Below are positions 26,197 through 41,923 of a stretch of DNA of 64,000 bases, one piece after another. The notes under the pieces were generated by a model. That model was not told the DNA's origin. It saw only the letters and a list, made by a program, of their open reading frames with translations, and made no database searches. Position 1 is the stretch's first letter. Each line of letters starts with the position of its first letter. The stretch is from contig NZ_ML142848.1 of NCBI RefSeq assembly GCF_004138485.1, positions 186,001-250,000 on the forward strand, given 5' to 3'. The stretch comes from Peristeroidobacter soli (GTDB lineage Bacteria > Pseudomonadota > Gammaproteobacteria > Steroidobacterales > Steroidobacteraceae). The position numbers and the translations under genes are program-made.

Positions 26197-28262
26197 TCGC
26201 TCATCGGCGCTCGCAACGCCCGCCAGCGCAGGTATTGCTCGCGCTTGTCCGGATCCGGATCTTCGCGGCCCGACAACCAGAAGCCAAACCAATCGACGTT
26301 GCGCTGATAGACCCGCAACCGGTGCACCGGCTGCGTCTTCAGATGCCGCTCCTGCGGATAGACAATGAGCTCGACCGGCTTGCCCGCCTCCTTCAAGGTC
26401 AGGAACAGCGGCACGGCGAGCGAATATTCGAAGTCCGATGCCTGGATCAGCAACGGCGCCTCGATGCGTGACGCATTCAACATCGGCGAGAGCTCCCGCC
26501 ATGCCGCCTGCGCGTCACCGAACGGGTCGCCGATTCTCAGCGAGTCCTTGTCGCGATACTGCGGTCCGCCATAGTAATGAATGACTGGATCGTTGCCGGC
26601 ACCGCTGACCGCCGCCGCGGCAAAATGAATCTTGGTCGAATGAGAAATGGCATATGTCCCCTTGTCCGCGCCATCGCTCAAGCCCGAGATGCCGACGCGC
26701 TTGGGATCGATCCAGCCACGTTCGGTGAGTTGCTCGACAGCAGCTTCCAACGCCGTGAGCACGCTTTTATGATCCCGCCCGTCATGATGAAGCAGTCGCA
26801 TCGCTTCCGGGTGATCCAGCTGCGCATAGGCGAGGCGGTTCTCGGGCCGATCGACGCTCAGCACACACAGCCCACGCTCGGCGAGCAGATGGATGGGATA
26901 TTCATTGCCCACCGCACCTCGCAAGAAGCCTCGCGACAGGTACAACGTAATCACCAGCGGACACGCCGGCGATGCCTTGCCGCCGGGCGGCTCGACGAAG
27001 TGCCCGAACGCCGGCGTGCCGTTGGCATCCTTGAACTCGATGCGAGTCACGCGCCCAAAACGAACCTCCCGCATCCTTGGGTTCAAATCCACCCACCGAC
27101 TCAACTTGCCGGTCCGCAGATCGAGTCGCGCGATCTCAGGTGCAAGTGTCGGCGCCTCATGGATGCAGAACGCCAGGTCGTTACGCATCGCGCAGCCAGA
27201 TGGCGCCAAAGCGCGCGCGCCCACCAGCAAGTCATCGCTCACCAGAATGCGTCGCACTTTCCCCTTCGTGGGCGACCATGCGTAAAAGGCGGTGGCATCG
27301 ACGGTGTCACGTTCGCGGCGCTGGAAATACAACTCCTGTCCGTCACGGCTCCAGCTCAGGCCAGCCATGCGCCCGGTGCAGAGTGCATCTTCGCAGGCCG
27401 TAACAACTCGATCACGCGGGTTCAACAAGGCAAGCTGCGAAGGATGGCGCTGGTCTGGAAAGCGAATGCCCGGCGCGGGGCGACTGAAGGCCACCATCGA
27501 ATTCGTCGGATGCGGCGTGTGATAGTACGTCGCCTCTTCGAGCCCCCCGACGCGCGATCCGAGCGCATCCCACTCGGCTTGGGTGGCAACTCGCTCGGCA
27601 CCGGACTTCAAGTCGTAGACGCGATAGCCGTTGCCTTCGAGCGGGGCCACGCGTTCCACTGTCCCATCGATTTCGGTGAGGCCCGCTCCGTAATAGGACT
27701 GCAGCGACTCCGACATGATGTAACCCGATTTGCCCGCCTCGCTCGAATACCGGGCCTGCGCATCGCGCGCAGGACCACGTTCATAAATCACGCTGTGCGA
27801 ATCGCGATCCCAGCGGAAGTCGAGCACGTCGCCCTCGCTGTGCGTGAGCTGCCGTTGCAGGCCATCCTCGAGACGGCTCATCCAGAGCTGGGTCTGCCCG
27901 GCCACGGTCATCAAGTATGCGATGGCGGTGGAATCATTCGTCCACTGCGGCTCGCGCAGTGCCGGGAATCCAGTGGCATGCCGCCCCGGCATCGCATAGG
28001 AAATCTGCCCCGCCGAGCCGAGCGCTCTCACGTCGCTCGAATCGGTCGTCGACACCGCAAACCAGGATGAGCGATAGTCATTGGTCGCAAGCTCCGCCTG
28101 TGTGACTTGATACGCGAGCCAGCGACCGTCCGGCGAGATCGTCGGCGCCGATGGCTCGCTCAACGTGAGCAGATCCATCGCCGTGATGGCCCGGGTACCG
28201 GCGACGGCATGAATCGACAACAGCGTGGCGCACAGGCCCGCAAGCAACATACCGGTGCGCAT
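26193..28262 (-). CDS. Exported S9 family peptidase (prolyl oligopeptidase/DPP-like)
   Basis: A 689-residue S9-type serine peptidase. A signal peptide (about residues 1-22) ends AVAG. The N-terminal two thirds is a TolB/DPP-like propeller (APTISPDGRWLAYQV, WSRDGQELYF). The C-terminal alpha/beta-hydrolase domain has the nucleophile in GISGLSDGADKG, a candidate Asp in LIQASDFEYS and His in YPQERHLKT. The start at 28262 is preferred; a GTG two codons upstream is possible, overlapping the receptor stop. It is directly coupled to the STN-type TBDT, so it probably cleaves a peptide-like ligand in the periplasm after uptake. The triad Asp/His assignments are by position. Confidence 0.87.
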   Translation of the reverse strand: MRTGMLLAGLCATLLSIHAVAGTRAITAMDLLTLSEPSAPTISPDGRWLAYQVTQAELATNDYRSSWFAVSTTDSSDVRALGSAGQISYAMPGRHATGFPALREPQWTNDSTAIAYLMTVAGQTQLWMSRLEDGLQRQLTHSEGDVLDFRWDRDSHSVIYERGPARDAQARYSSEAGKSGYIMSESLQSYYGAGLTEIDGTVERVAPLEGNGYRVYDLKSGAERVATQAEWDALGSRVGGLEEATYYHTPHPTNSMVAFSRPAPGIRFPDQRHPSQLALLNPRDRVVTACEDALCTGRMAGLSWSRDGQELYFQRRERDTVDATAFYAWSPTKGKVRRILVSDDLLVGARALAPSGCAMRNDLAFCIHEAPTLAPEIARLDLRTGKLSRWVDLNPRMREVRFGRVTRIEFKDANGTPAFGHFVEPPGGKASPACPLVITLYLSRGFLRGAVGNEYPIHLLAERGLCVLSVDRPENRLAYAQLDHPEAMRLLHHDGRDHKSVLTALEAAVEQLTERGWIDPKRVGISGLSDGADKGTYAISHSTKIHFAAAAVSGAGNDPVIHYYGGPQYRDKDSLRIGDPFGDAQAAWRELSPMLNASRIEAPLLIQASDFEYSLAVPLFLTLKEAGKPVELIVYPQERHLKTQPVHRLRVYQRNVDWFGFWLSGREDPDPDKREQYLRWRALRAPMSD

Positions 28263-28264
28263 GA

Positions 28265-31105
28265 TCACATCCCCAGCGAGAGATTGACGTACCAGAAGCG
28301 TCCGCGCATGTCAGCCTGCAACAGATCATACGGCGCGATGGATGTATTGTTCGAGTAACCGCCGATCTCGTTGGTCAAGTTGGTTGCACCCAACGTGACT
28401 TTGAATTCACGGGACAACAGCGGCCCCAGGCCATCCGCTTTGGTCCAGGTGATCTGACCATCCAGCCACTGGTACGGGCCCAGCCGCCCGGTGCCCGCAT
28501 AGTCGATGGACGATGAGACATATCGATAGGTCAGACTGCCGCTCAAGCCGCTGATGTGACCGAGCATGGCGGTCGCCGATGCTCGCATGCGCGGTGCGAA
28601 GCCGGACAAGTTCGCCCGCCCCGCACGGCTGGTCGCTGTCGCGCCGGGGATCAACGCACTCTCGTATTTATCGACGTACGTGCCGTTCACGATCAGCGAG
28701 CCGTTCAAACTGTCGCTGAACAACTTCGCGCCTGCGGTCGCCTGGAAATCCAGCCCCTCGCTGGTGAGCTCTCCGAAGTTCACGCGCGTGGTATCCATCG
28801 AAAGGATGCGTCCCGGATAGCCGAGCGCGACATCGGCCGGCGTCGGCGCCGCCCGCACGATACGTTCGGCGAACAAGCTCTCATTCTCCAGCAACGTGGC
28901 TGAGCTGAAGAACTGCACGGTGTTGTCGATGCTCACCCGAAAGGCGTTCACCGAAACCGCGCCATTGATGGCGGGCAGATCCAGGGTCACGCCCAGATCG
29001 AACGAAGTCCCCTTCTCCGCGTCGAGGTACGGGTTGCCGCCGGACGTTCCCATCACCGATATCACTTCGCCGCCACGAGCCGGATCGACAGCCGTAGTCG
29101 TCTGCGTCAGGCGGGGCGCGAACAAGTAGTACAAGGACGGCGCACGAAATGCCGTGCCGTAGTTGGAATGCAGTCGCACTCGATCCCAGGGATACCAGCT
29201 GGCGCCGAAGCGATACGTGAAGCTGCTGCCAAAATCGTCGTGATCGTCATAACGAGCCGCCGTGTTCAACTCCACCAGCGGCGCACCGAGCCGCGTCGAG
29301 CCCAGCTCCAGTGCCAGCTCCGCGAAGCCCGACGTGACCGCGCGGTCCGCAACCACACCGTAGTATTCGAGATCTTCGGTCCGATGCTCGACGCCGAAGG
29401 CCATCGGCAGACTCACCGCTTCGGCAAGCGCGAACTCGGTCCGCGCAACTGCCGTTCCCTGCATGGACTTCGTTTCGCCTTCGATGGTCCGATGCGATCG
29501 AATCGCCGCCAGCGTCGCCGGATTGTTCGGCGACGTCGAGAATACATTGAGGGCAACGGCCGGATCGCTGGAATTCAAATACTGCCGCACCAACGCATAG
29601 TCGATGTAGTTGTCGAGCTGCGTGTTCACGCGGGAACGATCCCACAGCCCGCTGACGCTGACATCGAAACGGCCGAGCCGGATATTGTCACCGGCCAGCA
29701 GCGCGCGCGTGTACTTGGTCTCGTAATGATCTTCTCGATTGCCGAGCTCGTTGAACCGATAGTCGACGCCCACCGCCTCGCCGAAAGGATTGAACGGATT
29801 GGTCGCGGGCACGGTGAAATAACCAACGGAGCCGGAGAACAAACTGTCCGGTGCCGCCGGCATGAACACCTCGTTCTCTCCGAGCAGCACCTGAGCGGAT
29901 ACAATTGCTCCGCTGTCCAGCGAGAGCTTGCCTGTGGCCAGCAATGTATTTCGATTGGTCTGCGTCAGCAGCGGATACGCTGAAATCACTGATTCGCGGT
30001 TCAATACTCCGTCGGTCGCGGCGAAGTCGGCTGGTGTCAACACCGTGCCCGCGGCACTCGAAGGAATACCTGCCCGCGTGCTGGTCAATCCGGGTAGAGC
30101 TGTGCCGTCCAGAGAATAAACATTGCCGGGATAGCTCGAGGTCGAGCGCCGGTCGAGGCCACCGAAACGCCGATAGTCCGAGTCCGATGTGAGCGCGCGC
30201 TCCGAGCCCAACAGTGGATCGCGATGGAATGCATCGCCAATCAGCATCCAGGAAACCGCGCCGGCCGAGCCGCCATAGCTCAAGCTGGCACGACGCTCGG
30301 CGGCGCCACCCTCGCTGCTGTCGCCATAGCGCAGATCGGCGGCGATTCCATCGAGCGAATCGCGCAGGATGATGTTCACCGCACCGGCCATGGCGTCCGA
30401 GCCATAAATGGCGGAGGCGGTGCCACTGATGATCTCGATGCGCTCGACCGCGGCCGCGGGAATCATCGAGGGATCGTTGTACAACCCGGCAACGGCAGGC
30501 GATGCAGAGACGCGATGTCCGTTGATCAGCAACAGCGTCGTACCTGTCGGCATGCCGCGCAGCTGGATCGTGGATGAAGCGCCGGCCGACATCGCACCGG
30601 ACTCATCGTTGGTGACCGACGCCTGCGACAGGCGGCTGATCACTTCCAGCACCGTGGCGCCGCCGTTGCGATCGATGTCACTGCGACTGATCGTCGTGAG
30701 CATCGAGGTGGGCTCGCCTTGTTTGCGCAGATGCGTGCCGGTGACGACGACCTCCATGATGTCGCGATCGGGATCGAGCCCTTCGCGACGCGAGCCACGT
30801 TCCATCGGCACGATGCTCACGCCGCCTTCGTTCAAGATCACGTAGGTGAAGCCGGTTCCCCGCAGCAGCTGCGCCAGCGCTTCGACCGACGTGAGCTCGC
30901 CGGACGCCCCCTTGGTCTTGAGTTTGCTCAGCTCATCGCCATAGGCAATCTGAAAGCCGCGTTCCTTGGCCAATGCCTGCAAGGCCGCGCCCAGATCCTG
31001 CGCGACGATGTTCGTCGGCCTGCGCGCTTCGGTCCATGAATCTGCGGCGAACGTCGTGCCGGCAAAGGAAACACAGGCAATGGCAATGGCCAGACTCGAG
31101 CGCAT
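28265..31105 (-). CDS. TonB-dependent receptor with STN signalling domain (module A)
   Basis: A 946-residue FecA-like transducer. The start at 31105 follows GGGGAGAG; signal peptide to about residue 21 (TTFAA). Residues 30-95 form an STN domain (DLGAALQALAKERGFQIAYG...LLRGTGFTYVI), which in FecA-type systems contacts the FecR anti-sigma protein. A TonB box-like IMEVVVTGTHL, plug and barrel follow, ending in LSLGM. The plug begins like Oar/CirA-type receptors (GGATVLEVISRLSQASVTND). It lies 114 nt downstream of the fecR-like gene with its own GGGGTA-N17-CTCTCT promoter in the gap, and it overlaps the S9 peptidase gene. Ligand probably a peptide. Confidence 0.94.
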   Translation of the reverse strand: MRSSLAIAIACVSFAGTTFAADSWTEARRPTNIVAQDLGAALQALAKERGFQIAYGDELSKLKTKGASGELTSVEALAQLLRGTGFTYVILNEGGVSIVPMERGSRREGLDPDRDIMEVVVTGTHLRKQGEPTSMLTTISRSDIDRNGGATVLEVISRLSQASVTNDESGAMSAGASSTIQLRGMPTGTTLLLINGHRVSASPAVAGLYNDPSMIPAAAVERIEIISGTASAIYGSDAMAGAVNIILRDSLDGIAADLRYGDSSEGGAAERRASLSYGGSAGAVSWMLIGDAFHRDPLLGSERALTSDSDYRRFGGLDRRSTSSYPGNVYSLDGTALPGLTSTRAGIPSSAAGTVLTPADFAATDGVLNRESVISAYPLLTQTNRNTLLATGKLSLDSGAIVSAQVLLGENEVFMPAAPDSLFSGSVGYFTVPATNPFNPFGEAVGVDYRFNELGNREDHYETKYTRALLAGDNIRLGRFDVSVSGLWDRSRVNTQLDNYIDYALVRQYLNSSDPAVALNVFSTSPNNPATLAAIRSHRTIEGETKSMQGTAVARTEFALAEAVSLPMAFGVEHRTEDLEYYGVVADRAVTSGFAELALELGSTRLGAPLVELNTAARYDDHDDFGSSFTYRFGASWYPWDRVRLHSNYGTAFRAPSLYYLFAPRLTQTTTAVDPARGGEVISVMGTSGGNPYLDAEKGTSFDLGVTLDLPAINGAVSVNAFRVSIDNTVQFFSSATLLENESLFAERIVRAAPTPADVALGYPGRILSMDTTRVNFGELTSEGLDFQATAGAKLFSDSLNGSLIVNGTYVDKYESALIPGATATSRAGRANLSGFAPRMRASATAMLGHISGLSGSLTYRYVSSSIDYAGTGRLGPYQWLDGQITWTKADGLGPLLSREFKVTLGATNLTNEIGGYSNNTSIAPYDLLQADMRGRFWYVNLSLGM

Positions 31106-31172
31106 GAACTCTCCCCGCCTTCGTTGAGGCTGTACGGCCGTCGACCGGTATGGCGACGGCTTCATGCGCTGT

Positions 31173-31201
31173 AGAGAGAAAATTGCCGCGGGCGATACCC
31201 C
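31173..31201 (-). promoter_or_regulatory. Predicted ECF-sigma promoter, receptor A
   Basis: GGGGTA (31196-31201), 17-nt spacer, CTCTCT (31173-31178) on the minus strand, 67 nt before the module A receptor start. It follows the pattern GGGGTR-N17-SWCTCT found at three other sigma/receptor genes here. The 17-nt spacing equals that of FecI promoters. Confidence 0.6.
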
Positions 31202-31219
31202 GCCGCGGCGGAAAAATAT

Positions 31220-32302
31220 TCAGCCGTCATCGTGAACGATTCGAACCTGGTCGCCGCGTTCGATCACGCTGACGTGCGGACGGCTGCGCAGATAACCGAT
31301 CATGAATTGCGGATCGATGGAGAACACGCCGCTCAGACGCAGCGGCGTCGCCGCGCGCTCCTCGACGAGGAGCTTGCGAGTGCTGTAACGATTGAACTCC
31401 TCCGCCACCTCGGCGAGCGTCGTCGATTGGAATATCAACTGCCGCTGCGTCCAGGCGGTGACGACCGGAAGCTCCGCGAGCACCGCGCTGCCCGGACCGG
31501 CGTCTGTCACCGTGACCTGCTCGCCCGCGACGAGCGGTGTTCCGCCGGTCGCCTTCGCGCCAGGCGAGGAGGCATTCTCCGCTCGCTCTGGAGCATCCTT
31601 CACCTCAGAGGCCGCGCCCGACACGACCACCTTTCCTTCGATGACCGTGACGACGATGCCGCTGTCCTTGCGATAGACGTCGAACTGAGTGCCGACTGCC
31701 CGCACATAGGTGCGGTCGCTGCCGACGATGAAGGGCCGATCCGGATCCTTCGCTACCTTGAACAGCGCCTGCCCTTCCAGCAAATCGATCTCTCGCTGGT
31801 GCGCAGACATGCGCACGCGAATCCGCGAACGCGAATTGAGTGTCACGACCGACCCGTCGGCCAGCGCCAGCGTGCGCTGCTCGCCGGCATCCGTGGCATA
31901 CGCAGGCGCGCGACCGAGCGTCAGGGTCGCGACCAATCCCACCGCGATCAGCACGCCGCCCACTGCCGCCGCAGCGAGATATCTCCTGCGCGTGCCCGGG
32001 CCATCCTCGGATCTACGCCGCGCTGGCGGCGTTCGAACTCCCGCAGCGATTGGAACCACATTCTCTTCGGATTGAATCGCCACCAACAGCCGTGCAGAGG
32101 AAAGCTGCTGCCCGGCATCCAGACCATCGCCTTCGTTCCAGATCGCGGCCATCTCCAGATAGGCCCGCAAATGTTCGGGAGACGTGCGCACCCACGCGTC
32201 GAACTGCTGCAGCTGGGCCGGCTCCAGTTCGCCAGTACGGAACTCGACCAGCCATCCGGCGGCCTCTTCGGAAATCTGCGGGTTCAAAGTGTTGCCAGTC
32301 AT
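31220..32302 (-). CDS. FecR-family anti-sigma regulator (module A)
   Basis: A 360-residue single-pass inner-membrane signal transducer. An N-terminal DUF4880-type cytoplasmic domain (about residues 8-60, EEAAGWLVEFRTGELEPAQLQQFDAWVRTSPEHLRAYLEMA, read in part) should bind the sigma factor. A transmembrane helix at about 108-130 (YLAAAAVGGVLIAVGLVATL) leads to a periplasmic FecR domain (EQRTLALADGSVVTLNS, EGQALFKVAKD, RAVGTQFDVYR) that would meet the receptor STN domain. A Pro/Ala-rich insert (about 245-265) is absent from the module B paralogue. It lies 7 nt after the sigma gene and shares EVAEEFNRYSTRKL with module B. Confidence 0.92.
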   Translation of the reverse strand: MTGNTLNPQISEEAAGWLVEFRTGELEPAQLQQFDAWVRTSPEHLRAYLEMAAIWNEGDGLDAGQQLSSARLLVAIQSEENVVPIAAGVRTPPARRRSEDGPGTRRRYLAAAAVGGVLIAVGLVATLTLGRAPAYATDAGEQRTLALADGSVVTLNSRSRIRVRMSAHQREIDLLEGQALFKVAKDPDRPFIVGSDRTYVRAVGTQFDVYRKDSGIVVTVIEGKVVVSGAASEVKDAPERAENASSPGAKATGGTPLVAGEQVTVTDAGPGSAVLAELPVVTAWTQRQLIFQSTTLAEVAEEFNRYSTRKLLVEERAATPLRLSGVFSIDPQFMIGYLRSRPHVSVIERGDQVRIVHDDG

Positions 32303-32309
32303 AGCGTCC

Positions 32310-32828
32310 CTACTCGGCCTCTTTGAGCCGTTTACGAAAATGCACCAGCGCCTTCACCAGATACTTCTTGGCCATGGGCCGGGAGATGCCCAGCCGGGCG
32401 CTGGTCTGCTCGATGGTCAGGCCGTCGCGACGATGGAACAGGAAGGTCGCCTGCACCTTGGGCGAGAGCTCCAGCAGCGCGTCGTCGAGCGCTTCGACAC
32501 ATTGCTGAGCGCTGACTTCGAGGGCCGGGTCGAGCTGTTCGAGATCGCCGCTCTCGGCCAGCACCGCATCCAGCTCGACTTGGGAGGCGCCGCCCGAACG
32601 CTTCAATCCGTACTCGATGGCCACGTGTCGCGCGATGGTGAATATGTAGGCTTCCGGCGTCCGCACCGTGGCCACGCTCGGAATGCGCAACAGGCGCAGG
32701 AACACCTCCTGCACCAGATCCGGGATATCGGCGTCGTTGCGCACCCGGGTGCGCAGGAATCGTCTCAAGCCTGCTTCATGACGCCTGGCCAGGTCTTCGA
32801 CCCAGGCATGCGGATCCTGCAACGGCAA
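32310..32828 (-). CDS. ECF sigma factor, FecI-like (module A)
   Basis: A 172-residue ECF sigma factor. Region 2 includes IPDLVQEVFLRLLRIPSV and YIFTIARHVAIEYG; region 4 includes LSPKVQATFLFHRRDGLTIEQTSARLGISRPMAKKYLVKAL with the recognition helix near the C-terminus. It would be freed or activated by the FecR-like protein when the receptor binds ligand, then direct RNA polymerase to GGGGTR-N17-SWCTCT promoters. One such site lies in front of its own gene (32861-32889), implying autoregulation. It closely resembles the module B sigma factor, notably the identical SRPMAKKYL recognition-helix segment, so cross-recognition is likely. Confidence 0.93.
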   Translation of the reverse strand: MPLQDPHAWVEDLARRHEAGLRRFLRTRVRNDADIPDLVQEVFLRLLRIPSVATVRTPEAYIFTIARHVAIEYGLKRSGGASQVELDAVLAESGDLEQLDPALEVSAQQCVEALDDALLELSPKVQATFLFHRRDGLTIEQTSARLGISRPMAKKYLVKALVHFRKRLKEAE

Positions 32829-32860
32829 CGTCGCTCCCGAAAATGGTCGTCCGTTGACGT

Positions 32861-32889
32861 AGAGTCCGAATCGGCGCGGTCGATACCCC
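32861..32889 (-). promoter_or_regulatory. Predicted ECF-sigma promoter, sigma A
   Basis: GGGGTA (32884-32889), 17-nt spacer, GACTCT (32861-32866), 32 nt before the module A sigma gene. The -10 is identical to that of the module B sigma promoter. Confidence 0.6.
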
Positions 32890-32904
32890 CGAGTCGAAAA
32901 TAAT

Positions 32905-33354
32905 CTAAGCCCAGTGCAAAGTAACGGCGGTCAGCACCAGATAGCGCCCGACCTTGGCCACGGTGACGAGCAACAGGAACACCGGCAGCGGCTCGCGCAA
33001 AACGCCGGCGATGACGGTCAGCGGATCTCCAATGAGGGGCACCCAGCTCAACAGCAACGACCACTTGCCGTAGCGCTGGTACCAGGCTCGATACCGCTCC
33101 AATGTGGCAGGCTGCACAGGAAACCAGGAGCGCTCGCTGAAGCGCTCGACCCATCGGCCCAGTCCCCAGTTCAGCGTGGCACCGAGCACATTGCCGACGC
33201 TGGCAACCGTGACCAGCAGCGACGCGGGATAGTTGTCGGTCAGCAGCAGCCCGACCAGCGCGGCCTCCGACTGCATCGGCAGAAAAGTGGCGGCCAGGAA
33301 GGCGACCAGGAACAGTCCCGCGTAGATCGCCAGATCCGGCATGTGGCTCACCAT
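32905..33354 (-). CDS. YqaA family membrane protein (SNARE-associated/VTT fold)
   Basis: A 149-residue inner-membrane protein of the YqaA/DedA-related group. It has hydrophobic helices at about 8-28, 38-60, 95-118 and 125-145. Landmarks are FLPMQSEAALVGLL, GNVLGATLNWGLGRW and SWVPLIGDPLTVIAGVLR, which match the reentrant loop and Pro/Gly-rich region of this superfamily. The ATG at 33354 is preferred because GAGGTG is well spaced from it; an ATG at 33360 sits too close. DedA relatives carry lipids or help maintain membrane potential; YqaA itself has no firm function. It lies upstream of, but separate from, the sigma A promoter. Confidence 0.85.
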   Translation of the reverse strand: MVSHMPDLAIYAGLFLVAFLAATFLPMQSEAALVGLLLTDNYPASLLVTVASVGNVLGATLNWGLGRWVERFSERSWFPVQPATLERYRAWYQRYGKWSLLLSWVPLIGDPLTVIAGVLREPLPVFLLLVTVAKVGRYLVLTAVTLHWA

Positions 33355-33424
33355 CGTCATTCACCTCACGATGGTAGCGCGGTTCCCGACACTGCGCCGG
33401 CATCCGTGCCGGCCGGGATTTTCT

Positions 33425-33805
33425 TCAACGACGCGCGGCGGTCCGGATCATTTCATTCCGCTCGCCCGTGCGCTGTGCGTGCAGGGCCGAGAGGAGCGGT
33501 CGATTGGCCTGCCCTACTGCATCGCTGAGCGCGCTTTGGTAGCAGGCACGAGCGCGCACCATCCGCTCCAGCTCGCGCGATTGATCGACGCGACAGACGA
33601 TTTTCGCAGCTGAGCGAATTCGATCGTAGGCCAGCTCGGCGCCCTTCGGGGTCGATGTCTCGATGCCCGCGAGGCTGACGACGATCTTTGGTACATCGCC
33701 AGTGCCGCCATTGTCGGCACTGGCGAATCCCGAGACCAAGCAGGCAGCAATGACGGTCAGCAACAGAATGTGACTGCGCTCAGGCGCGGCGTTGAGTTTG
33801 CACAT
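33425..33805 (-). CDS. UrcA family secreted protein
   Basis: A 126-residue protein with a signal peptide to about residue 30 (LLLTVIAACLVSGFASA). The mature part matches the UrcA pattern: a short strand region (KIVVSLAGIETSTPKGAELAYDRIRSAAKIVC) followed by a Cys-x(n)-Cys pair (IVCRV, RACYQSAL) and the ALSDAVGQANRPLL helix. UrcA proteins are small periplasmic proteins of unknown function common in proteobacteria with many TBDTs. GGAGTC precedes the ATG. It has its own leader and is not clearly part of a neighbouring operon. Confidence 0.75.
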   Translation of the reverse strand: MCKLNAAPERSHILLLTVIAACLVSGFASADNGGTGDVPKIVVSLAGIETSTPKGAELAYDRIRSAAKIVCRVDQSRELERMVRARACYQSALSDAVGQANRPLLSALHAQRTGERNEMIRTAARR

Positions 33806-34106
33806 GATCTTTGACTCCAGAAGTGAGAGAGGGGTATCAAGCGCTTTGCCCGGCGCTTGCTGGAGCAGATTGCAGGCGTCATGCCGGCTCGGCCGGTGAG
33901 CTGCGGGATTTCGCTAAGTCACTGAAGTCGACGGCGAATCATTAGGGCAGCAAGAGGAATCCGCACAGCGTGTCGTGCTGGCGCGCGGGCGGGATTCGTT
34001 GGCTCGCGACCAACGTCGCGAGCTGCAGTGTTGGAGGCGCGGCGGTCAATTCGAGTTGGCCCCAGGTCCTCTTGACCGATTCGGGCGGCGCGCATCAGAT
34101 CGCGTC
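33806..34106. other. Intergenic region between urcA-like and usp genes
   Basis: A 301-base divergent gap holding the leaders of the UrcA-like gene (leftward) and the universal stress gene (rightward). It has a short GC-rich CCGG...CCGG dyad near 33882-33895. I see no convincing ORF, FNR box, strong promoter or terminator. Confidence 0.5.
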
Positions 34107-34559
34107 ATGTATTCGCGAATCCTGGTTCCCATCGATGGCAGCGTGGCCTCCGCCCGAGGGCTCGATGAGGCCATGGACCTTGCCGGTCATTTGCAGGCTC
34201 GCATGCAGCTCGTGCACGTCGTGGAGCCGTGGATCATGGTGACCGTGGAAGCGATGCCTGCCACGGTTCATCAGGTCGCCGAGGACATCCGCAAAATCGG
34301 CGGCGCGCTGTTACAGGAGTGCAAGGACAAGGTGACCAACGCCGGCATCGAGGTCGATGTGGAACTGATCGAGACTCTCGGTGATTCGGCCGGCGAATGC
34401 ATCGTGAAAAAGGCCCGGGAAATGGATGCCGATCTCATCGTCTGCGGCACTCACGGCCGCCGCGGCTTTCGCAGACTCCTGATGGGCAGCGATGCGGAAT
34501 ACATCGTGCGACGGGCACCCGTGCCGGTGCTGCTGGTACGCAACCAGGACCCGAGCTAG
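34107..34559 (+). CDS. Universal stress protein (UspA family)
   Basis: A 150-residue single-domain Usp. The N-terminal strand ILVPIDGS, the long ADLIVCGTHGRRGFRRLLMGS segment and the C-terminal VPVLLVRN are family hallmarks. The G-x-H-G-R-x-G-x(9)-GS pattern matches the ATP-binding subgroup. Usp proteins are cytoplasmic and help survival in starvation or oxidative stress. The ATG at 34107 is the start that gives the canonical N-terminus. It converges with the amidohydrolase gene 3 nt away. No operon partner is evident. Confidence 0.93.
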   Translation: MYSRILVPIDGSVASARGLDEAMDLAGHLQARMQLVHVVEPWIMVTVEAMPATVHQVAEDIRKIGGALLQECKDKVTNAGIEVDVELIETLGDSAGECIVKKAREMDADLIVCGTHGRRGFRRLLMGSDAEYIVRRAPVPVLLVRNQDPS

Positions 34560-34562
34560 CCA

Positions 34563-35825
34563 TCACCGCGCATCCTTGAAGATCTGCCCTTCCTTCATCA
34601 CGAACGAGATCTCACCGGCATCGCCGAGAGCGTCGATCTTCGTCAAGGGATCGCGTTTCGTTGCAATGATGTCCGCGATCATGCCGGGCGCGATCATGCC
34701 AAGGCTGTCGCCGCGCCCGAGTGCATTGGCCGCGTTCACCGTGGCCGCACGCAGCACCTGCTCGGGCGGCATACCCGCCTGTGCGAGCAATCCAAACTCC
34801 ACATGACTCTGCTCGACATCGAAGATGCCCAGGTCCGTACCGAAGATGATGGGCACGCCGGCTCGATAGGCCTTGCCGACACCCTCCAGTCCTTCCTGGA
34901 ACCTGAAGTCGATCATCTTCCCCGCGAGCAGGGTCGGCGTGTACGCCGTGCCGTGCTTTTTCATCAACGCAATGGCTGCGTCGTCGACCGGGCCGTGCTC
35001 GATCGTGTCCGCACCCGCCGCGATGACCATGTGCAGATACGCCGGCGAGCCGATCACATGTGCCGCCACCTTGCGATCCAGCTGATGCGCGGTGTCGATG
35101 ATGGCCTGCACTTCCGCCTGAGACTCGACCATCTGCACCTTCGGAGCGTCGAAGGGCAAACCGGATTGCCGCAGCTTGACCACATCCGCGCCCCGGCGCA
35201 CTTCCTGACGCACGACCTTGATGCACTCGGTAACGCCTGTGCAGTTGCCGCGATTGGATACGTACTGCTCGAGATCTTTGCGAACATCCCAGCGGGACGC
35301 ATCCAGATCGCCGCCATCGACGGAGATCTGCGGCTCCGAAACAAACATCCGGGGACCGACGACCAAACCCTTGTTGATGGCGTCGCGCAGCGCGTATTGG
35401 GTGCTCGACTGATCGCCCAACGAGCGAATCGTCGTGAAGCCGCTCATCAACAACGCCTTGGCTCGCGGCAGCATGCTCAGCACCGCCTCCGCCGGCGGAC
35501 GCATGTAAGCCATTGCGATCTGCGGCTCCGTCGGTGCCGCAAGATCGAGCACGCCGGTCAGATGAGTGTGCATATCGATCAGGCCCGGCATGACCCACGC
35601 GTCCTTCAAGTCGACCACGTTGTCGCCGGCAACGAATCCTTCCTTCACCGCGACGACTTTGCCGTCCTCGACGATCACGGAACGATTCGTGAGCGGCGGT
35701 TTACCGGGCTCGGCAATGAGATGGCCCGCATGAATCACGGTAGTGGTCGGCGCGTTCTGCGCCCACGCGACCGACGCGACGGCAGCGAACATGACGGCAA
35801 AGGAGAATTTTGAGAGAGGGCGCAT
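34563..35825 (-). CDS. Exported metal-dependent amidohydrolase (Xaa-Pro dipeptidase/imidazolonepropionase-like)
   Basis: A 420-residue amidohydrolase-superfamily enzyme with a signal peptide (residues 1-22, VAWAQ). Metal-ligand motifs are complete: HTH (H86, H88) in GLIDMHTHL, a Lys in ADVVKLRQSG for carbamylation, His in VAAHVIG and IEHGP, and the late Asp in IIFGTDLG. Relatives hydrolyse dipeptides with C-terminal Pro, aryl dipeptides or small lactams. It lies 74 nt downstream of the module B STN-type TBDT, in the same position as the S9 peptidase in module A. It probably processes the imported ligand in the periplasm. Confidence 0.9.
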   Translation of the reverse strand: MRPLSKFSFAVMFAAVASVAWAQNAPTTTVIHAGHLIAEPGKPPLTNRSVIVEDGKVVAVKEGFVAGDNVVDLKDAWVMPGLIDMHTHLTGVLDLAAPTEPQIAMAYMRPPAEAVLSMLPRAKALLMSGFTTIRSLGDQSSTQYALRDAINKGLVVGPRMFVSEPQISVDGGDLDASRWDVRKDLEQYVSNRGNCTGVTECIKVVRQEVRRGADVVKLRQSGLPFDAPKVQMVESQAEVQAIIDTAHQLDRKVAAHVIGSPAYLHMVIAAGADTIEHGPVDDAAIALMKKHGTAYTPTLLAGKMIDFRFQEGLEGVGKAYRAGVPIIFGTDLGIFDVEQSHVEFGLLAQAGMPPEQVLRAATVNAANALGRGDSLGMIAPGMIADIIATKRDPLTKIDALGDAGEISFVMKEGQIFKDAR

Positions 35826-35899
35826 GAGTTTTCCTCGAACGAATTCCGCACCGGCGCCACGGCGCCGGCGATTGAAGGGCCTGAAGGGGAAACCGTGGA

Positions 35900-38386
35900 C
35901 TAGAGCCGGTAATCGAGCGTCACACCGACGGTGCGAGGCCGGATCAGGTATTGCTGAAGTGGATCGTCCAACGCAGTCGTCACGCCATGACTGTTGGTCA
36001 CGTTATTGACGAACGCCGTGAGACTGAACTGGTTGAAGCGCAACGCGACGCGTGCATCGACTACGCTGAAGTCGCCCTGCTCCGCGCCGGCTCCAAAGAT
36101 GCCGGGCGCCTCCGAAAGATAGCGATGCGAGAGCACGAAAGACGGCGCCAGCGGCAGTCGGGACATCTCATAAGTGAGCGTGCTCGACACCTGCCACTGC
36201 GATGCGCCGGGCAGTGTGGACCCCGCGGGCACGATGTCCTGACCGCCACCGGGATTGAAATCTTCCACCAGCTCGGCATTCAAATAGGTGAGGTTGGTGG
36301 TGAACAGCAGATCGCGGGCAATCAGCCACGTCGCCGTGCCCTCGACACCATAGCTCTCCGCCTTGCCCGCATTGCTCGCATAGTTGAGCCGCAGCGGGGT
36401 CTGCTGCCGCAGTTGGATATCCCGCCAGTCGATGTAGAACACCGTGCCGTCCAGGCGCACGCGCTGACCGAACAGATCCGAGCGCACGCCCAACTCGTAG
36501 TTGAACAGCGAATCGGAATCGAACTGCCGCGGCACCGTGAACCCCGGTTCCGACACGATGATGTTGGGGCCGCCATACCGGAAACCTTTGCTCGCCAGAC
36601 CATACGCCATGAAGTCGTCGCCCGGCGTCCAGGTGACGGAGATCTTCGGGGTAAAGCCGTTCTCCTTCTGCGTGCCGGACTCCGCACTCTGCAGCGCCCC
36701 CGTCGTCAGCAGCGTATAGAAGCCACTCGACAACGTTTCATTCTCGACCTTGGTTTCGAACGCGCGACCGCCGAGCGTCATCTTCCACACATCGTTGAAA
36801 TGATAAGTCGCCTCACCGAACAGCGCGCGCTCTTCGCCGCGCACTGGAATCCGGGCGTCCAGAAAAATATCGCCCGGCGCCGAGATCTCCCCGATCCCTT
36901 CGCCCAACAGCGGCCCAAAGACCTCCTCGATGACGGCCGCGGTGCCCGGCCCGCCCGCCAGGTTGCGAATGTTCATGCGCGTGTCATCGCGCATGGCGCC
37001 GATGAGATATTCAAACGACCGCCCGGTCGGCGACGCGAGCCGCACTTCGAACGTCTTGCCGCGACTGGTCGAAGGCGCGCTGATGGTAATCGGCGTCACG
37101 CCCGGCAGCAGCGACTGCAGATCGCCGGTCGCATCCTCGATGTTGTCCGAGCGCTTCTCGTGATGAGCCGCGGACACTGTCAAAGTACCAAAGCCGAACT
37201 CCTGGTCGACCCGCAAGTTATGAAGGGTGGTTTCATACTCGCCAAACTCCGGCACCACGGTATTTTTCCGCAGGCGTCCTGCGGTCTGCGGCTCCTGATA
37301 TCCCACGTCGTCGTTGTTCAAGGTCTGATTCAGGAATAGATAGTTGACCTTGGTTCGGTCGGTGGGCGTCCACAGCGCTTGCACGCGGCCGCCGCGAATC
37401 AGCACGCGATCCGCATCGCGCCGTCCCGTGCCGACGTTGTCGATGAAGCCGGCATCGTCGCGATAGACATAGACGCCGCGTAGCGCGAGCTGGTCGCTCA
37501 CGATCGGCGCATTGATCATGACTTTGCCGGACTGATTGCTGCCGCCGCCGGTGACGCCCGCGTAGCTGCCTTGAACTCGCGCGTCCCATCGCGAGGCATC
37601 CGGCCGGGCCGTCTGATAATTGATCGCGCCACCCAACGAGGCGGACCCGAACAACGTGCCCTGCGGACCGCGCAGCACCGAAACGTTGTTGACGTCGAAG
37701 GCGTCGATGTCGGGAATGGCGATGGCAAAGAACGGATCGGTGAGCGGCACGTCGTCGAGGAAATAACCGGTCGTGCCCTGCCCCTGGTCGATGCGCGTGG
37801 TCGTGGAGATACCGCGAATCGTCACCGAGGAATTCCCCGGCGCGCTGCCATTGAAGATCACACCCGGCGTGCGAGAGATGTAGTCCGCCATGCTCTGCGC
37901 TCCCACCCGCTCCAGCTCACTGCCCGTCAGTGCGCTGACCGAGCCGGAGATTCTTCGTACCGCCTCGGGTCGCTTGGTCGCGGTGACGATGACTTCTTCC
38001 AGCAACAGCGACGCATCGGCGGACGCCTGCGCGAGGTGCGGAGGCTCGGAAGAATCAACCGCGCTCGTCGACTCCGTCTCGGGCGCGGAGAATACGGTGA
38101 CGGTACGCTCATCGAGGTAGCGATATTCCAGATCCGTTCCCTGCAACAGCGCCCGCAACGCTTCGTCGCTGGTCACATCGCCGATCACTCCTCGCGTATG
38201 CAACTTCGCCACTTCTTCGGAAACATAGATGATCTGCAGCTTGTGATCTTTGGCGAAGGCTCGTAGTGCCGGCCCGAGCCCTTGCGCCGGAATGAACGTT
38301 CGTTTCTTGATCGCGGCCTGCACGTCGGCCGCCATCGACAGGCCGACCGAGAGTGATATCGCCGCCGCCAGCACGCTCAAACGCAT
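35900..38386 (-). CDS. TonB-dependent receptor with STN signalling domain (module B)
   Basis: An 828-residue FecA-like transducer. The start at 38386 follows GGGGAG; the signal peptide ends near ADVQAA. The STN domain covers about residues 28-92 (LGPALRAFAKDHKLQIIYVSEEVAKL, DEALRALLQGTDLEYRYL). The TonB box-like LLEEVIVTATKRPEAV is followed by a plug (RISGSVSALTGSEL, RGPQGTLFGSASLGGAIN) and a barrel ending VGVTLDYRL. It follows the fecR-like gene by 103 nt, with its own GGGGTA-N17-CACTCT promoter. The amidohydrolase downstream suggests an N-acylated or peptide ligand. Overall organisation equals module A. Confidence 0.94.
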   Translation of the reverse strand: MRLSVLAAAISLSVGLSMAADVQAAIKKRTFIPAQGLGPALRAFAKDHKLQIIYVSEEVAKLHTRGVIGDVTSDEALRALLQGTDLEYRYLDERTVTVFSAPETESTSAVDSSEPPHLAQASADASLLLEEVIVTATKRPEAVRRISGSVSALTGSELERVGAQSMADYISRTPGVIFNGSAPGNSSVTIRGISTTTRIDQGQGTTGYFLDDVPLTDPFFAIAIPDIDAFDVNNVSVLRGPQGTLFGSASLGGAINYQTARPDASRWDARVQGSYAGVTGGGSNQSGKVMINAPIVSDQLALRGVYVYRDDAGFIDNVGTGRRDADRVLIRGGRVQALWTPTDRTKVNYLFLNQTLNNDDVGYQEPQTAGRLRKNTVVPEFGEYETTLHNLRVDQEFGFGTLTVSAAHHEKRSDNIEDATGDLQSLLPGVTPITISAPSTSRGKTFEVRLASPTGRSFEYLIGAMRDDTRMNIRNLAGGPGTAAVIEEVFGPLLGEGIGEISAPGDIFLDARIPVRGEERALFGEATYHFNDVWKMTLGGRAFETKVENETLSSGFYTLLTTGALQSAESGTQKENGFTPKISVTWTPGDDFMAYGLASKGFRYGGPNIIVSEPGFTVPRQFDSDSLFNYELGVRSDLFGQRVRLDGTVFYIDWRDIQLRQQTPLRLNYASNAGKAESYGVEGTATWLIARDLLFTTNLTYLNAELVEDFNPGGGQDIVPAGSTLPGASQWQVSSTLTYEMSRLPLAPSFVLSHRYLSEAPGIFGAGAEQGDFSVVDARVALRFNQFSLTAFVNNVTNSHGVTTALDDPLQQYLIRPRTVGVTLDYRL

Positions 38387-38454
38387 GAGAACTCCCCTGC
38401 CTCTCAAGAGGCTTGTAGTACCCAGCGTCCGTTGACGTGGGCTCATGCGTTAGA

Positions 38455-38483
38455 AGAGTGTGAGATCGGACATCGGGTACCCC
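38455..38483 (-). promoter_or_regulatory. Predicted ECF-sigma promoter, receptor B
   Basis: GGGGTA (38478-38483), 17-nt spacer, CACTCT (38455-38460), 68 nt before the module B receptor start. Element spacing is identical to the three other sites. Confidence 0.6.
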
Positions 38484-38489
38484 GCCGCG

Positions 38490-39551
38490 TCAGTTATTTT
38501 TGCCGACGCGGATCTCCGTTTCCGTCTCCACGACACGCAGCTCCCGCCGCGCTTGCAGGAAGCGGATCAGCGAGGAAGGGTCGGTCGAGGAAAACACGCC
38601 GCTGATGTGGAAGTCGTAGTGCTGGTCCTTGTCGATGACCAATCGGCGAGTGTTGTAACGATTGAACTCCTCGGCGACTTCGACCAACGAGGCGGTATCG
38701 AACACCAGTTCGCGTTGCCGCCACGCGGTCGCGCCCTCGATGTTTGGATGCGCCAGGCGCTGCGCGGCGCTGTCGCTGACATTCACCTGCTCGCCCGCCG
38801 ACACCAACAAGCCTGACGCGAGCGCTCCGGTCTGCGGTTCGGCGAAACTCACATCGCCGGCGCCGCGCTCGGCAAGCACGGCCACCCGTCCTTCCACGAC
38901 GGTGACAATGGTGCCGCGTCGCTTGCGATAGACGTCGAACTGCGTGCCGACGGCGCGAACGAGAGTGCCACCGCTCTCGACCACGAAGGGGCGAGCATGA
39001 TCCTTGGCCACATTGAACAACGCCTGCCCCTCGATCAGCTCGACGCCGCGCAGGCGGGACGAGAACCGGATCCTGACCTTGGAGCGCGAGTTCAGATCTA
39101 CAGTCGAGCCGTCGGCGAGCACGATGGAGCGTTGCTCGCCGACACCCGTCGCATACGTCTGCGGCCAGAACATCAGCGACACGACCACCAGCACTGCCGC
39201 AGCGGCCGCAAGCGACGCCGTTAGTGCAAGCCTACGCGTGAGCTTCGACGGCGGCGACGGGGGAACAACCGGCTCGCGCGCGGACGAAAGCTCGACCACG
39301 TTGTTGCGATGTCGGACGGCGGCCGCGATCAGCGCCTCGACATCCGCATCCGCCGGAATGGCGGCACCCGCCTCTTGATAGAGAGCGGCGACTTCCAGAT
39401 AAGCGGCAATGTGCTCTGGCGATTGGCGCAGCCATCGATCCAGGTCGCGCCGGGCAGCGGCATCCAGCTCGCCTGAGCGGCACTCGCCGAACCAGTCGCA
39501 GGCCTCTTCATAGACCTGCGCGTTGAACTTGCCTCGGACACTGCGCTCCAT
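38490..39551 (-). CDS. FecR-family anti-sigma regulator (module B)
   Basis: A 353-residue FecR homologue and paralogue of the module A protein. DUF4880-type N-terminus (EEACDWFGECRSGELDAAARRD, DRWLRQSPEHIAAYLEVA), a transmembrane helix near 110-130 (LALTASLAAAAAVLVVVSLM) and the periplasmic FecR domain (GEQRSIVLADGSTVDLNS, EGQALFNVAKDHARPF, RAVGTQFDVYRKRRG). The C-terminal FNRYNTRRL and ISGVFSS segments, where FecR proteins contact the receptor STN domain, match module A. The ATG at 39551 is preferred over a GTG one codon earlier. It lies 10 nt after the sigma gene. Confidence 0.92.
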   Translation of the reverse strand: MERSVRGKFNAQVYEEACDWFGECRSGELDAAARRDLDRWLRQSPEHIAAYLEVAALYQEAGAAIPADADVEALIAAAVRHRNNVVELSSAREPVVPPSPPSKLTRRLALTASLAAAAAVLVVVSLMFWPQTYATGVGEQRSIVLADGSTVDLNSRSKVRIRFSSRLRGVELIEGQALFNVAKDHARPFVVESGGTLVRAVGTQFDVYRKRRGTIVTVVEGRVAVLAERGAGDVSFAEPQTGALASGLLVSAGEQVNVSDSAAQRLAHPNIEGATAWRQRELVFDTASLVEVAEEFNRYNTRRLVIDKDQHYDFHISGVFSSTDPSSLIRFLQARRELRVVETETEIRVGKNN

Positions 39552-39561
39552 CACGGCGACC

Positions 39562-40080
39562 CTATTCCTGCTCCGCCAGGCTCTGGCGAAAGCGCATCAA
39601 TGCCTTGGTCAGATACTTCTTGGCCATGGGCCGCGACACGCCCATGCGCTCGGCGATCTCATCGAAGCTCAAGCCGTCGCGGCGGCTCAGAATGAAGGCG
39701 GCCCGCACCTTGGGATGCAACTCATCCAGCGCCTTCTGCAATTGTTCCAGGCATTGCTGAGCGCTGGCATCCAGCTCCGGGTTGGCATCGTGCGCCGAGG
39801 GCGCTGGATCGAGCATGCGCATGAGCTGCGCCGGACTGCCGGCGGGTCCCGACTGCAAGGCCTGCTGCTGGACCACGTGCTGAGCGACCGTGAACAGATA
39901 CGCCTCCGGCGAGCGAATCGACGCCGCATCGGGCACGCGAAGCATTCGCAGGTACACCTCCTGGATGAAATCCGGCACGTCCGCCACGTTTCGCACGCGC
40001 GCGAGCAGGAACCGGCGCAGCTGCAGGCCGTGACTCGCCACGAGCCCCGCCACCAGGGATGGAGCGTTGCAACCCGCCAA
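39562..40080 (-). CDS. ECF sigma factor, FecI-like (module B)
   Basis: A 172-residue ECF sigma factor, the same length as the module A protein. Region 2: VPDFIQEVYLRMLRVPDA and YLFTVAQHVVQQQ. Region 4: LHPKVRAAFILSRRDGLSFDEIAERMGVSRPMAKKYLTKALMRFR. The recognition helix core SRPMAKKYL is identical to module A, which agrees with the shared promoter pattern. Its gene is preceded by GGGGTG-N17-GACTCT (40112-40140), so it probably autoregulates. First gene of a leftward sigma / anti-sigma / receptor / hydrolase row. Confidence 0.93.
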   Translation of the reverse strand: MAGCNAPSLVAGLVASHGLQLRRFLLARVRNVADVPDFIQEVYLRMLRVPDAASIRSPEAYLFTVAQHVVQQQALQSGPAGSPAQLMRMLDPAPSAHDANPELDASAQQCLEQLQKALDELHPKVRAAFILSRRDGLSFDEIAERMGVSRPMAKKYLTKALMRFRQSLAEQE

Positions 40081-40111
40081 GCCAGCCTCCTTTGGTCGTT
40101 GGTCCTTATAA

Positions 40112-40140
40112 GAGTCGTTTGTCCGCCGCTGGTCACCCCT
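40112..40140 (-). promoter_or_regulatory. Predicted ECF-sigma promoter, sigma B
   Basis: GGGGTG (40135-40140), 17-nt spacer, GACTCT (40112-40117), 31 nt before the module B sigma gene. The sixth -35 base is G where the other three have A. Confidence 0.55.
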
Positions 40141-40212
40141 CGCCGCGAAATTTTTTGTTGTGTAAAGGCGTCAGCGGCGGAATGCGGTGGTTGCCTATAG
40201 TGACAAAGTATT

Positions 40213-40241
40213 CTCTAATCAGGATACTATTCTCCTATAAT
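40213..40241 (+). promoter_or_regulatory. Candidate housekeeping promoter with perfect -10
   Basis: TATAAT at 40236-40241 in an AT-rich island, 32 nt before the D-aminoacylase-like gene. The -35 region (CTCTAA at 17-nt spacing) is poor, so an activator may be needed. An imperfect dyad, GTATTC-N8-GGATAC (40208-40227), overlaps the -35 region and may be its operator. It would drive the rightward three-gene operon. Confidence 0.4.
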
Positions 40242-40273
40242 GCCAACTTGATCCCGTTCTGGTGGGAGGCTCG

Positions 40274-41923
40274 ATGAAGCGACTGGCCCTGGCAACCCTA
40301 TGCGCCTTGACGCTGGGAGCTGCACGAGCAGAAGAGACGTCCCCTGGCTACGACGTGGTCATTCGCAACGGGCGAGTGCTCGACGGCCTGGGCAATCCCT
40401 GGATCAACGCGGACGTTGCCATCGCAAACGGTCGCATCGCCGCGGTCGGCCGGATCCCCGGACGGGGCCGCAAGGAGATCGACGCGCGCGGGCTCTATGT
40501 TTCGCCAGGTTGGGTCGACATGATGGACCAATCGGGCGAGGTTCTTCGCACCGAGGGCCGCGCGGAGAACAAGCTTCTGCAAGGCGTGACCACCGCCATC
40601 GCCGGCGAAGGCGGCACGCCGGTCCCGGCCGAGGAGATCCCCGCCTACTTCGCCCAGTTGGAACGACAAGGAATCTCGCTCAATTTCGGCAGCTACTACA
40701 GCACCGCGCAGGCTCGAGTCGCGGTGATGGGCGACGGTGCCGGCCAGCCGACGCCCGCGCAACTGGAAAAGATGAAGTCGCTGGTGGCCACAGCCATGCG
40801 CGGTGGCGCCCTGGGCGTGGCGACCGCGTTGATCTATCCACCCGACAGCTTTCAATCCACCCAGGATCTGATCGAGCTGTCGAAAGTCGCCGCGGCCTGC
40901 GGCGGCATCTACGCCAGCCACATGCGCGACGAGAGCGCCAACCTGCTGAGCGCCATTTCCGAATCCATCCAGATCGGCGAACAGGCCGGCGTCCCGATCG
41001 AGATCTTTCATCTCAAGGGCGCGTATCAGCCCGGCTGGCACCAGTTGATGCCGCAAGCGATTGCTCAGATCGACGCGGCTCGACAGCGCGGCGTCGATAT
41101 CGCCGCGGACATGTATCTCTACGAAGCCGGCGGCACCGGCCTCGAAATCACCGTGCCGAGCTGGGTGTGGGAAGGCGGCTTCAAACAAGGCTTGAAGAAG
41201 CTCCAGAACCGCAAGGTGCGTGAGCGCCTGAAGCGCGAAGTCGCGGGCGGCTCGTTGCCCGGCTGGTCGAACCTCGTGCATGCCTCGGGCGGCTGGGATC
41301 GCGTGGTGCTGGCGAACGCGTTCAATCCCAAATACCAGCGCTTCCACAACCGCAGCCTCGCGGCCATCGGCAAGGAGCTCGGCAAGGATCCCGCCGACGT
41401 GGCCTGGGACATCGTGATCGAAGCCCAGCCCAATCGCGCCATGGCGCTGTATTTCATGATGGACGAGAAAGACATCGAAACGGCGCTGCGCACGCCTTGG
41501 GTGTCGCTCGGCAGCGATGCCTCGGCCAGCGAAAAACTCAACGCCACCGACGGGCTGGGACTGCCCCACCCTCGCTCCTATGGAAACTTCCCACGCCTCA
41601 TCGCCGAGTACGTGAGAAAGCGCGGCGTGCTGACGCTGCCCGACGCGATTCGAAAACTCACGTCGTGGCCAGCGACGCGCATGCGCCAGTTCGATCGCGG
41701 CGCCATTCGCACCGGCCTGTGGGCCGACATCACCGTCTTCGACTACGACCGCATTCAGGATCGCGCGACCTATCAGAACCCCACTGCCACCCCCGAAGGC
41801 ATCCAGTACGTACTGGTGAACGGCCAGGTGGTGGTCTCTGAGGGTCGACACACAGGTGCAAAGCCAGGCGTGGCTTTGAAGAGCAGCGGCTGCGCAAGGG
41901 ACCCGGCCGAGGCACGCACCTGA
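40274..41923 (+). CDS. D-aminoacylase-like amidohydrolase lacking the HxH pair
   Basis: A 549-residue exported protein of the N-acyl-D-amino-acid deacylase group. The ATG at 40274 follows GGGAGG; signal peptide to residue 19 (GAARA). The amidohydrolase frame is clear: YDVVIRNGRVLDGLGNPW at the start, ASHMRDE and EIFHLKGA for the second metal site, and SLGSDAS with the catalytic Asp. The usual VD-x-H-x-H reads VDMMDQ (Met84 and Gln86 instead of His). Thus only the beta-type metal site looks intact; D-aminoacylases act with one tightly bound zinc, so activity is still possible. It starts an operon with a TBDT and a second amidohydrolase. Confidence 0.85.
   Translation: MKRLALATLCALTLGAARAEETSPGYDVVIRNGRVLDGLGNPWINADVAIANGRIAAVGRIPGRGRKEIDARGLYVSPGWVDMMDQSGEVLRTEGRAENKLLQGVTTAIAGEGGTPVPAEEIPAYFAQLERQGISLNFGSYYSTAQARVAVMGDGAGQPTPAQLEKMKSLVATAMRGGALGVATALIYPPDSFQSTQDLIELSKVAAACGGIYASHMRDESANLLSAISESIQIGEQAGVPIEIFHLKGAYQPGWHQLMPQAIAQIDAARQRGVDIAADMYLYEAGGTGLEITVPSWVWEGGFKQGLKKLQNRKVRERLKREVAGGSLPGWSNLVHASGGWDRVVLANAFNPKYQRFHNRSLAAIGKELGKDPADVAWDIVIEAQPNRAMALYFMMDEKDIETALRTPWVSLGSDASASEKLNATDGLGLPHPRSYGNFPRLIAEYVRKRGVLTLPDAIRKLTSWPATRMRQFDRGAIRTGLWADITVFDYDRIQDRATYQNPTATPEGIQYVLVNGQVVVSEGRHTGAKPGVALKSSGCARDPAEART

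Follow-up and report, generated by a model that had tools for sequence, protein, structure and literature searches.

Matched promoter pairs predicted for two FecI-type signalling systems of Peristeroidobacter soli and for many of their paralogues

Two gene sets, each encoding a FecI-like extracytoplasmic function (ECF) sigma factor, a FecR-like anti-sigma factor and a TonB-dependent receptor with an STN signalling domain, lie within a 64,000-nucleotide stretch of the Peristeroidobacter soli genome (assembly GCF_004138485.1, contig NZ_ML142848.1, positions 186,001 to 250,000; hereafter the window). The question raised by this locus is whether one promoter motif unites both sets in a common regulon, or whether each set regulates itself. 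An earlier note, made from the sequence alone, had identified the pattern GGGGTR-N17-SWCTCT before both sigma factor genes and both receptor genes, and had taken it to define a single ECF regulon. The comparisons reported here favour another answer, as the two sets are probably self-contained signalling units with matched, private promoter pairs, mostly insulated from other such units and positively autoregulated.

A search of the window confirmed the four sites. The pattern occurs exactly four times, always on the minus strand, with the 17-nt spacer exact in each case, and every site is either intergenic or immediately 5' of a start codon. Three of the positions originally assigned were correct (31173-31201, 32861-32889 and 38455-38483), while the fourth is 40111-40139, rather than 40112-40140. 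Only 0.02 matches were expected in shuffled sequence, although this overstates the evidence, because the pattern was fitted to the same four sites. Across the 9.37 Mb of the window genome (17 contigs), the search proposed in the earlier note found no enrichment, with five exact matches against four for a reversed-pattern control, the fifth being antisense and within an ORF. Matches were present in 31 of 100 sampled genomes of the family, the window genome included, mostly at one or two each, and the reversed control behaved similarly. Refining the consensus for each system, and allowing up to two mismatches, did not recover a regulon from the genome either: there were 24 sites for system 1, against 36 for the reversed control, and three for system 2, against two. 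Because these counts approximate those of the reversed control, this wording is not a general motif, and the interest lies in the placement of the four sites. Neither a broad regulon, nor one extending beyond the locus, was found, and a common regulon for the two systems is not supported.

Instead, private promoter pairs appear to be a wider rule in a greatly expanded FecI family, which is a larger finding than the case of the window itself. The window genome (G000) contains 90 STN matches and at least 94 DUF4880 matches (150 of 476 DUF4880 candidates having been scored). STN and FecR matches form 103 clusters, 97 of which include a FecI-like sigma factor gene, and 85 of those 97 also include an STN gene. 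The 61 systems in tandem order were entered into an own-pair test, with the remaining 24 of the 85 omitted as their genes are not in tandem. The joint model underlying this test describes a two-block element before the sigma factor gene and before the receptor gene, the columns of which agree within a system, but are free between systems; the null distribution was generated from 60 re-pairings of sigma factor and receptor upstream DNA, each refitted, with a threshold score of 17. This threshold was reached by 24 of the 61 own pairs, compared with a null mean of 0.83 and maximum of 4, and scores of at least 20 by 13 of the 61, compared with a null mean of 0.017. The window systems (L071 and L072, corresponding to systems 1 and 2) scored 19.7 and 20.2 in the joint fit, whereas re-pairing all 61 systems yields a mean of 0.07 scores of 19 or more. 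The elements keep comparable distances in the better-scoring systems of this genome, with most -10 blocks ending approximately 60-130 nt 5' of the sigma domain, and 195-300 nt 5' of the STN domain.

This rule extends to three congeners (G103, G074 and G100), in which 19 of 50 systems exceeded the threshold, compared with a null mean of 0.85 and maximum of 3. These 50 were the usable systems out of 81 loci, which were drawn from the best 30 of 144 DUF4880 matches in G103, 30 of 32 in G074 and 21 of 21 in G100. The numbers of DUF4880 FecR domains in these genomes are very large, being at least 94 in the window genome, at least 144 in G103 (an assembly with 6% contamination and 940 contigs), at least 32 in G074 and at least 21 in G100. 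The wording of the two blocks differs from system to system, as in GGTATCC/GTCTA (L155), GGGGCCC/CTCTA (L161), ATTTCC/GTCTA (L084) and GGTGACA/GTC (L127), and is kept between orthologous systems of different genomes (L161/L275; L147/L266/L269; L094/L270). The suggestion of the earlier note that the sigma factors are autoregulated, and control their cognate receptor genes, is therefore upheld at the level of sequence, both in the window and as the wider rule.

Other searches of the upstream regions were less informative. A plain count of k-mers and dyads over all of them was swamped by FecR coding sequence, and yielded no common motif. An initial pairwise search with free spacers ranked the own pair first in 12-15 of 85 systems per spacer; some of its top hits, in the non-tandem systems L124, L133 and L166, were rejected as inverted repeats read on both strands, and it was for this reason that non-tandem systems were dropped from the final fit. 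The inverted repeat in the common upstream DNA of these three systems is spaced like a promoter (for instance, CTGTCC-16-GGACAG in L166), and may be either a bidirectional promoter or an operator.

The relatives of the window systems show which parts of the four sites are conserved. SKS4.bin46 and Steroidobacter sp. MAG-237 contain the nearest named records to sigma factor 1, at 60% and 50% identity, respectively. The promoter regions of MAG-237 are identical to those of G103, a genome assigned to the genus of the window genome. In a tree of 149 sigma factors, both window proteins fall in one starred clade of seven rows with a support of 99, alongside one member each from SKS4.bin46, G104, G103, G074 and G100. 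Within this clade, sigma factor 1 pairs with that of SKS4.bin46 (support 82), and sigma factor 2 with those of G074 and G100 (91). The clade's promoters have GGTRN and CTCT[A/T] in common, with the exceptions of CTCA at the SKS4.bin46 receptor gene, and of the G100 receptor promoter, which is without the -10 part. The GGTRN part of the proposed GGGGTR box is thereby kept in orthologues, whereas its two leading Gs vary (GAGGT, GCGGT, CCGGT). Similar promoter pairs are retained in L199 (SKS4.bin46), L267 (G074) and L207 (G104), and L200/L249 (Steroidobacter sp. MAG-237 and G103) have GGGGTATAAA with CTCTT in both promoters. Spacing also appears to distinguish this clade. Among the 15 confident members of a wider 25-row clade that lie outside the seven, the GGT-like box precedes the first -10 core base by 25 nt (13 members) or 24 nt (two members), while this distance is 23 nt in L071, L072 and L267, and 24 nt in L249; by eye, it is 23 nt in L199 and in the sigma promoter of L298 (G100), and 25 and 24 nt in L207. 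The window clade is thus probably for the most part a short-spacer variant, approximately 2 nt shorter than related sigma factors, subject to how the boxes are drawn.

The proposed mechanism takes its signal chain from the known FecA/FecR/FecI pathway. On binding a ligand, the receptor would pass the signal to FecR by way of its STN domain, freeing the FecI-like sigma factor. This would then initiate transcription at two matched promoters, one preceding its own gene, resulting in positive autoregulation of sigma-fecR, and the other preceding its own receptor gene. With -35 and -10 wording particular to each unit, many such units could operate mostly insulated from one another, with the two in the window representing a single orthologous sigma group that shares the core GGTRN .. 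CTCT. The matching of the promoters, their specificity to their own unit and their conservation are seen in the sequences, from which we infer their reading by the cognate sigma factor.

The foremost alternative is that the two systems form a cross-talking pair, in which either sigma factor reads all four promoters, such that one ligand would also raise the other receptor; we regard this as possible, though doubtful. All four sites share GGGGT, CTCT and an equal spacer, and the sigma factors, besides belonging to the same seven-member clade, are 49% identical and both contain the segment SRPMAKKYL. The earlier note was right about the identity of this recognition helix, from which it argued that each sigma factor may read the other's promoters. 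Yet the argument is weak, as the segment occurs in 3 of the 97 sigma factors, and the third carrier, L147, is associated with a different -10, CCCTA, and with a -35 of GGTATCC/GGTAGCC. The sequences flanking the shared core are also system-specific (TATCG..CTCTAC versus TRMCC..CTCTTM). When the fitted model was used to score every sigma promoter against every receptor promoter in a 61 x 61 matrix, the window own pairs scored 20.1 and 20.6, and each ranked first in its row and column. The pairing of the sigma 1 promoter with the receptor 2 promoter reached 15.9, ranking second in its row and third in its column, and lying above 15.2, the 99th percentile for cross pairs. However, the sigma promoter of another system, L088, was closer still to the receptor 2 promoter (19.0), and the reciprocal pairing, of the sigma 2 promoter with the receptor 1 promoter, scored 9.8, ranking 11th in its row and ninth in its column. 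Most likely, each sigma factor serves its own two promoters, with some cross-reading possible, above all between the sigma 1 and receptor 2 promoters.

The proposal of private promoter pairs must also accommodate several results that weigh against it. Firstly, 37 of the 61 tandem systems fall below the threshold, and own pairs scoring at least 10 (34) do not outnumber the null mean (36.0), limiting the demonstrated rule to approximately 40% of tandem systems. Secondly, certain cross pairs equal own pairs in score, with 12 of 3660 at 17 or more and a maximum of 22.1 (L114 with L117); for the 24 confident systems, the own pair leads 23 of the rows and 23 of the columns, albeit in a set chosen for high own scores. 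Thirdly, the receptor promoter of L298 keeps GGTAAC, but is without the -10 part, as if deleted, although the sigma promoter is kept (as judged by eye). Fourthly, covariation between promoter bases and sigma factor residues, calculated from 29 of 43 systems after removal of close kin, gave no domain-specific signal, as mean scores did not set region 2 apart from region 4; the strongest links included those of H68, E72 and L75 with the first -10 core base, and of K154 with the -35. This leaves some room for binding of the blocks by another regulator, such as a common repressor or activator, in place of RNA polymerase with the cognate sigma factor, but such binding is improbable in view of the ECF-like geometry and position of the blocks, and of the separate wording used by each sigma system. 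It is more improbable still that the matches are unselected remnants of upstream DNA that was duplicated or converted, even though the paralogous systems adjoin each other, as the likeness extends no further than a pair of short blocks a constant distance apart, with spacers that differ, and the pattern recurs in orthologues and in systems of unrelated wording.

Private, autoregulated promoter pairs would set these systems apart from their characterised counterparts. Both window sets resemble FecI-FecR-FecA of Escherichia coli in having a sigma factor with regions 2 and 4 only, an adjoining DUF4880 FecR and an STN TonB-dependent receptor (by Pfam). The matched and conserved promoter-like element 5' of each receptor gene would be the counterpart of the sigma-dependent receptor promoter of E. 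coli. Unlike E. coli fecIR, the transcription of which is described in PMC9249621 as Fur-controlled and not autoregulated, the window sigma factor genes carry the same predicted promoter as the receptors. The sets of HasI (Serratia) and HemI (Stenotrophomonas) are likewise similar in composition, but without reported autoregulation, according to PMC9249621 for hasI and PMC12772443 for hemI. The sequence of the window predicts an autoregulation contrary to the reports on fecI, hasI and hemI, and FecI-like proteins are, in PMC8103513, a named exception to ECF autoregulation. A similar FecI-FecR-receptor neighbourhood exists in Sinorhizobium meliloti, for which PMC6180224 states that no promoter motif was found before fecR and the receptor genes, in contrast to the matched promoters predicted here. 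The logic is rather that of autoregulated ECF sigma factors of the RpoE type, each of which reads its own promoter, so that this promoter can be deduced from matched motifs. PMC8103513 describes work by Todor et al. (2020) on the code of such sigma factors. In the one open library searched, no paper on TonB-dependent systems and sigma factors of Steroidobacter was found, nor was a description of genome-wide matched FecI promoter pairs found in a non-exhaustive look at titles and the openings of abstracts.

The receptor mRNAs of the wider clade may carry a further layer of control. Their leaders, as in both window systems and in L068, L105, L155 and L239, tend to fold with inner hairpins 5' of a Shine-Dalgarno-like GGGGAG, and with the start-codon region available for pairing to the predicted 5' end. 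Five of 13 folded leaders had z-scores of -2.4 or lower (L105, -4.5; L071, -3.3; L072, -3.2; L068, -3.1; L239, -2.4), with the other eight between -1.8 and 0.1. In 14 of 19 clade systems, the 5' end and the start-codon region form a predicted duplex at -6.6 kcal/mol or lower, and own leaders paired better than re-paired ones (p = 0.007 over the 19 systems; p = 0.0009 in a 14-row subset chosen afterwards). With automatically picked starts, -6.5 was reached by 15 of 19 clade receptors, compared with 7 of 24 other receptors; because the sigma factor leaders of the same clade also reach it in 12 of 19 cases (8 of 23 elsewhere), the pairing is less receptor-specific. A covariance model of six leaders hit at least 15 places in the genome at E values up to 10 (150 of 3765 candidates scored), comprising five training rows and ten others, six of which precede STN genes. 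In a MAFFT alignment of the six leaders, 2 of the closing stem's 9 pairs show compensatory changes, and its covariation score is equalled in 21 of 500 shuffles; a MAFFT alignment of the leaders (A1) was structurally poor. The model-fitted alignment, with 4 of 9 pairs compensatory, leans towards the model and contains one antisense L071 row. No Rfam family matched positions 31000-40300 at E values up to 1. The closing stem is likely, if unproven, and control of translation or stability would be a guess at the role of the leader. Of the 19 clade receptor promoters, 11 also have an ATG 11-13 nt after the first -10 core base, which is in frame in 10 of them; 2 of 19 sigma promoters have such an ATG. 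Its use as a leaderless start at the predicted transcript start was abandoned as the main interpretation, because this ATG complements the start-codon region, and its frame is broken in L121 and L267.

A tentative synthesis would be that the hugely expanded FecI family in Steroidobacter-like genomes consists of mostly insulated, self-amplifying channels with their own -35 and -10 wording, to which the window clade may have added a shorter spacer as an extra insulator, and the wider clade an RNA lock, in the form of the receptor mRNA 5' end folding onto the start codon. A genome with approximately 100 FecI-like sigma factors, many of them having a matched promoter at their own gene as well, would provide naturally occurring orthogonal sigma/promoter pairs, and the insulation among many paralogous channels could be tested directly by comparing promoters inside one cell. 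FecI-like sigma factors, the usual exception to ECF autoregulation, would here often be autoregulated. The genes, predicted promoters and predicted mRNA leaders of both window systems are listed in Table 1.

Table 1. Genes, predicted promoters and predicted mRNA leaders of the two signalling systems (window coordinates)
Feature	Position	Strand	Basis
ECF sigma factor 1, FecI-like (Sigma70_r2, Sigma70_r4_2), TTG start in ORF list	32310..32828	-	Pfam
FecR-like anti-sigma factor 1 (DUF4880 + FecR)	31220..32302	-	Pfam
TonB-dependent receptor 1 with STN signalling domain (as listed ORF)	28265..31165	-	Pfam
ECF sigma factor 2, FecI-like, TTG start in ORF list	39562..40080	-	Pfam
FecR-like anti-sigma factor 2 (DUF4880 + FecR)	38490..39554	-	Pfam
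TonB-dependent receptor 2 with STN signalling domain	35900..38446	-	Pfam
Predicted promoter of sigma gene 1, autoregulatory (GGGGTATC-N17-CTCTAC reading)	32861..32889	-	pattern match and own-pair fit
Predicted promoter of STN receptor gene 1, matching sigma 1 promoter	31173..31201	-	pattern match and own-pair fit
Predicted promoter of sigma gene 2 (GGGGTGACC..ACTCTTAT)	40111..40139	-	pattern match and own-pair fit
Predicted promoter of STN receptor gene 2 (GGGGTACCC..ACTCTTCT)	38455..38483	-	pattern match and own-pair fit
Receptor 1 mRNA leader: predicted 5' end (GCGCATGAA) pairing with start-codon region (TTCATGCGC), inner hairpins	31098..31171	-	folding, duplex, covariance model
Receptor 2 mRNA leader: same predicted layout (ACGCATGAG with CTCATGCGT)	38379..38452	-	folding, duplex, covariance model

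The receptor starts preceded by the Shine-Dalgarno-like GGGGAG are the ATG codons at 31105 (receptor 1) and 38386 (receptor 2). On the same strand, a peptidase S9 ORF (26193-28268) overlaps the end of receptor 1 by 4 bases, and an amidohydrolase ORF (34563-35825) comes after receptor 2. These neighbours are a hint that the ligands may resemble peptides or amides, and may not be iron.

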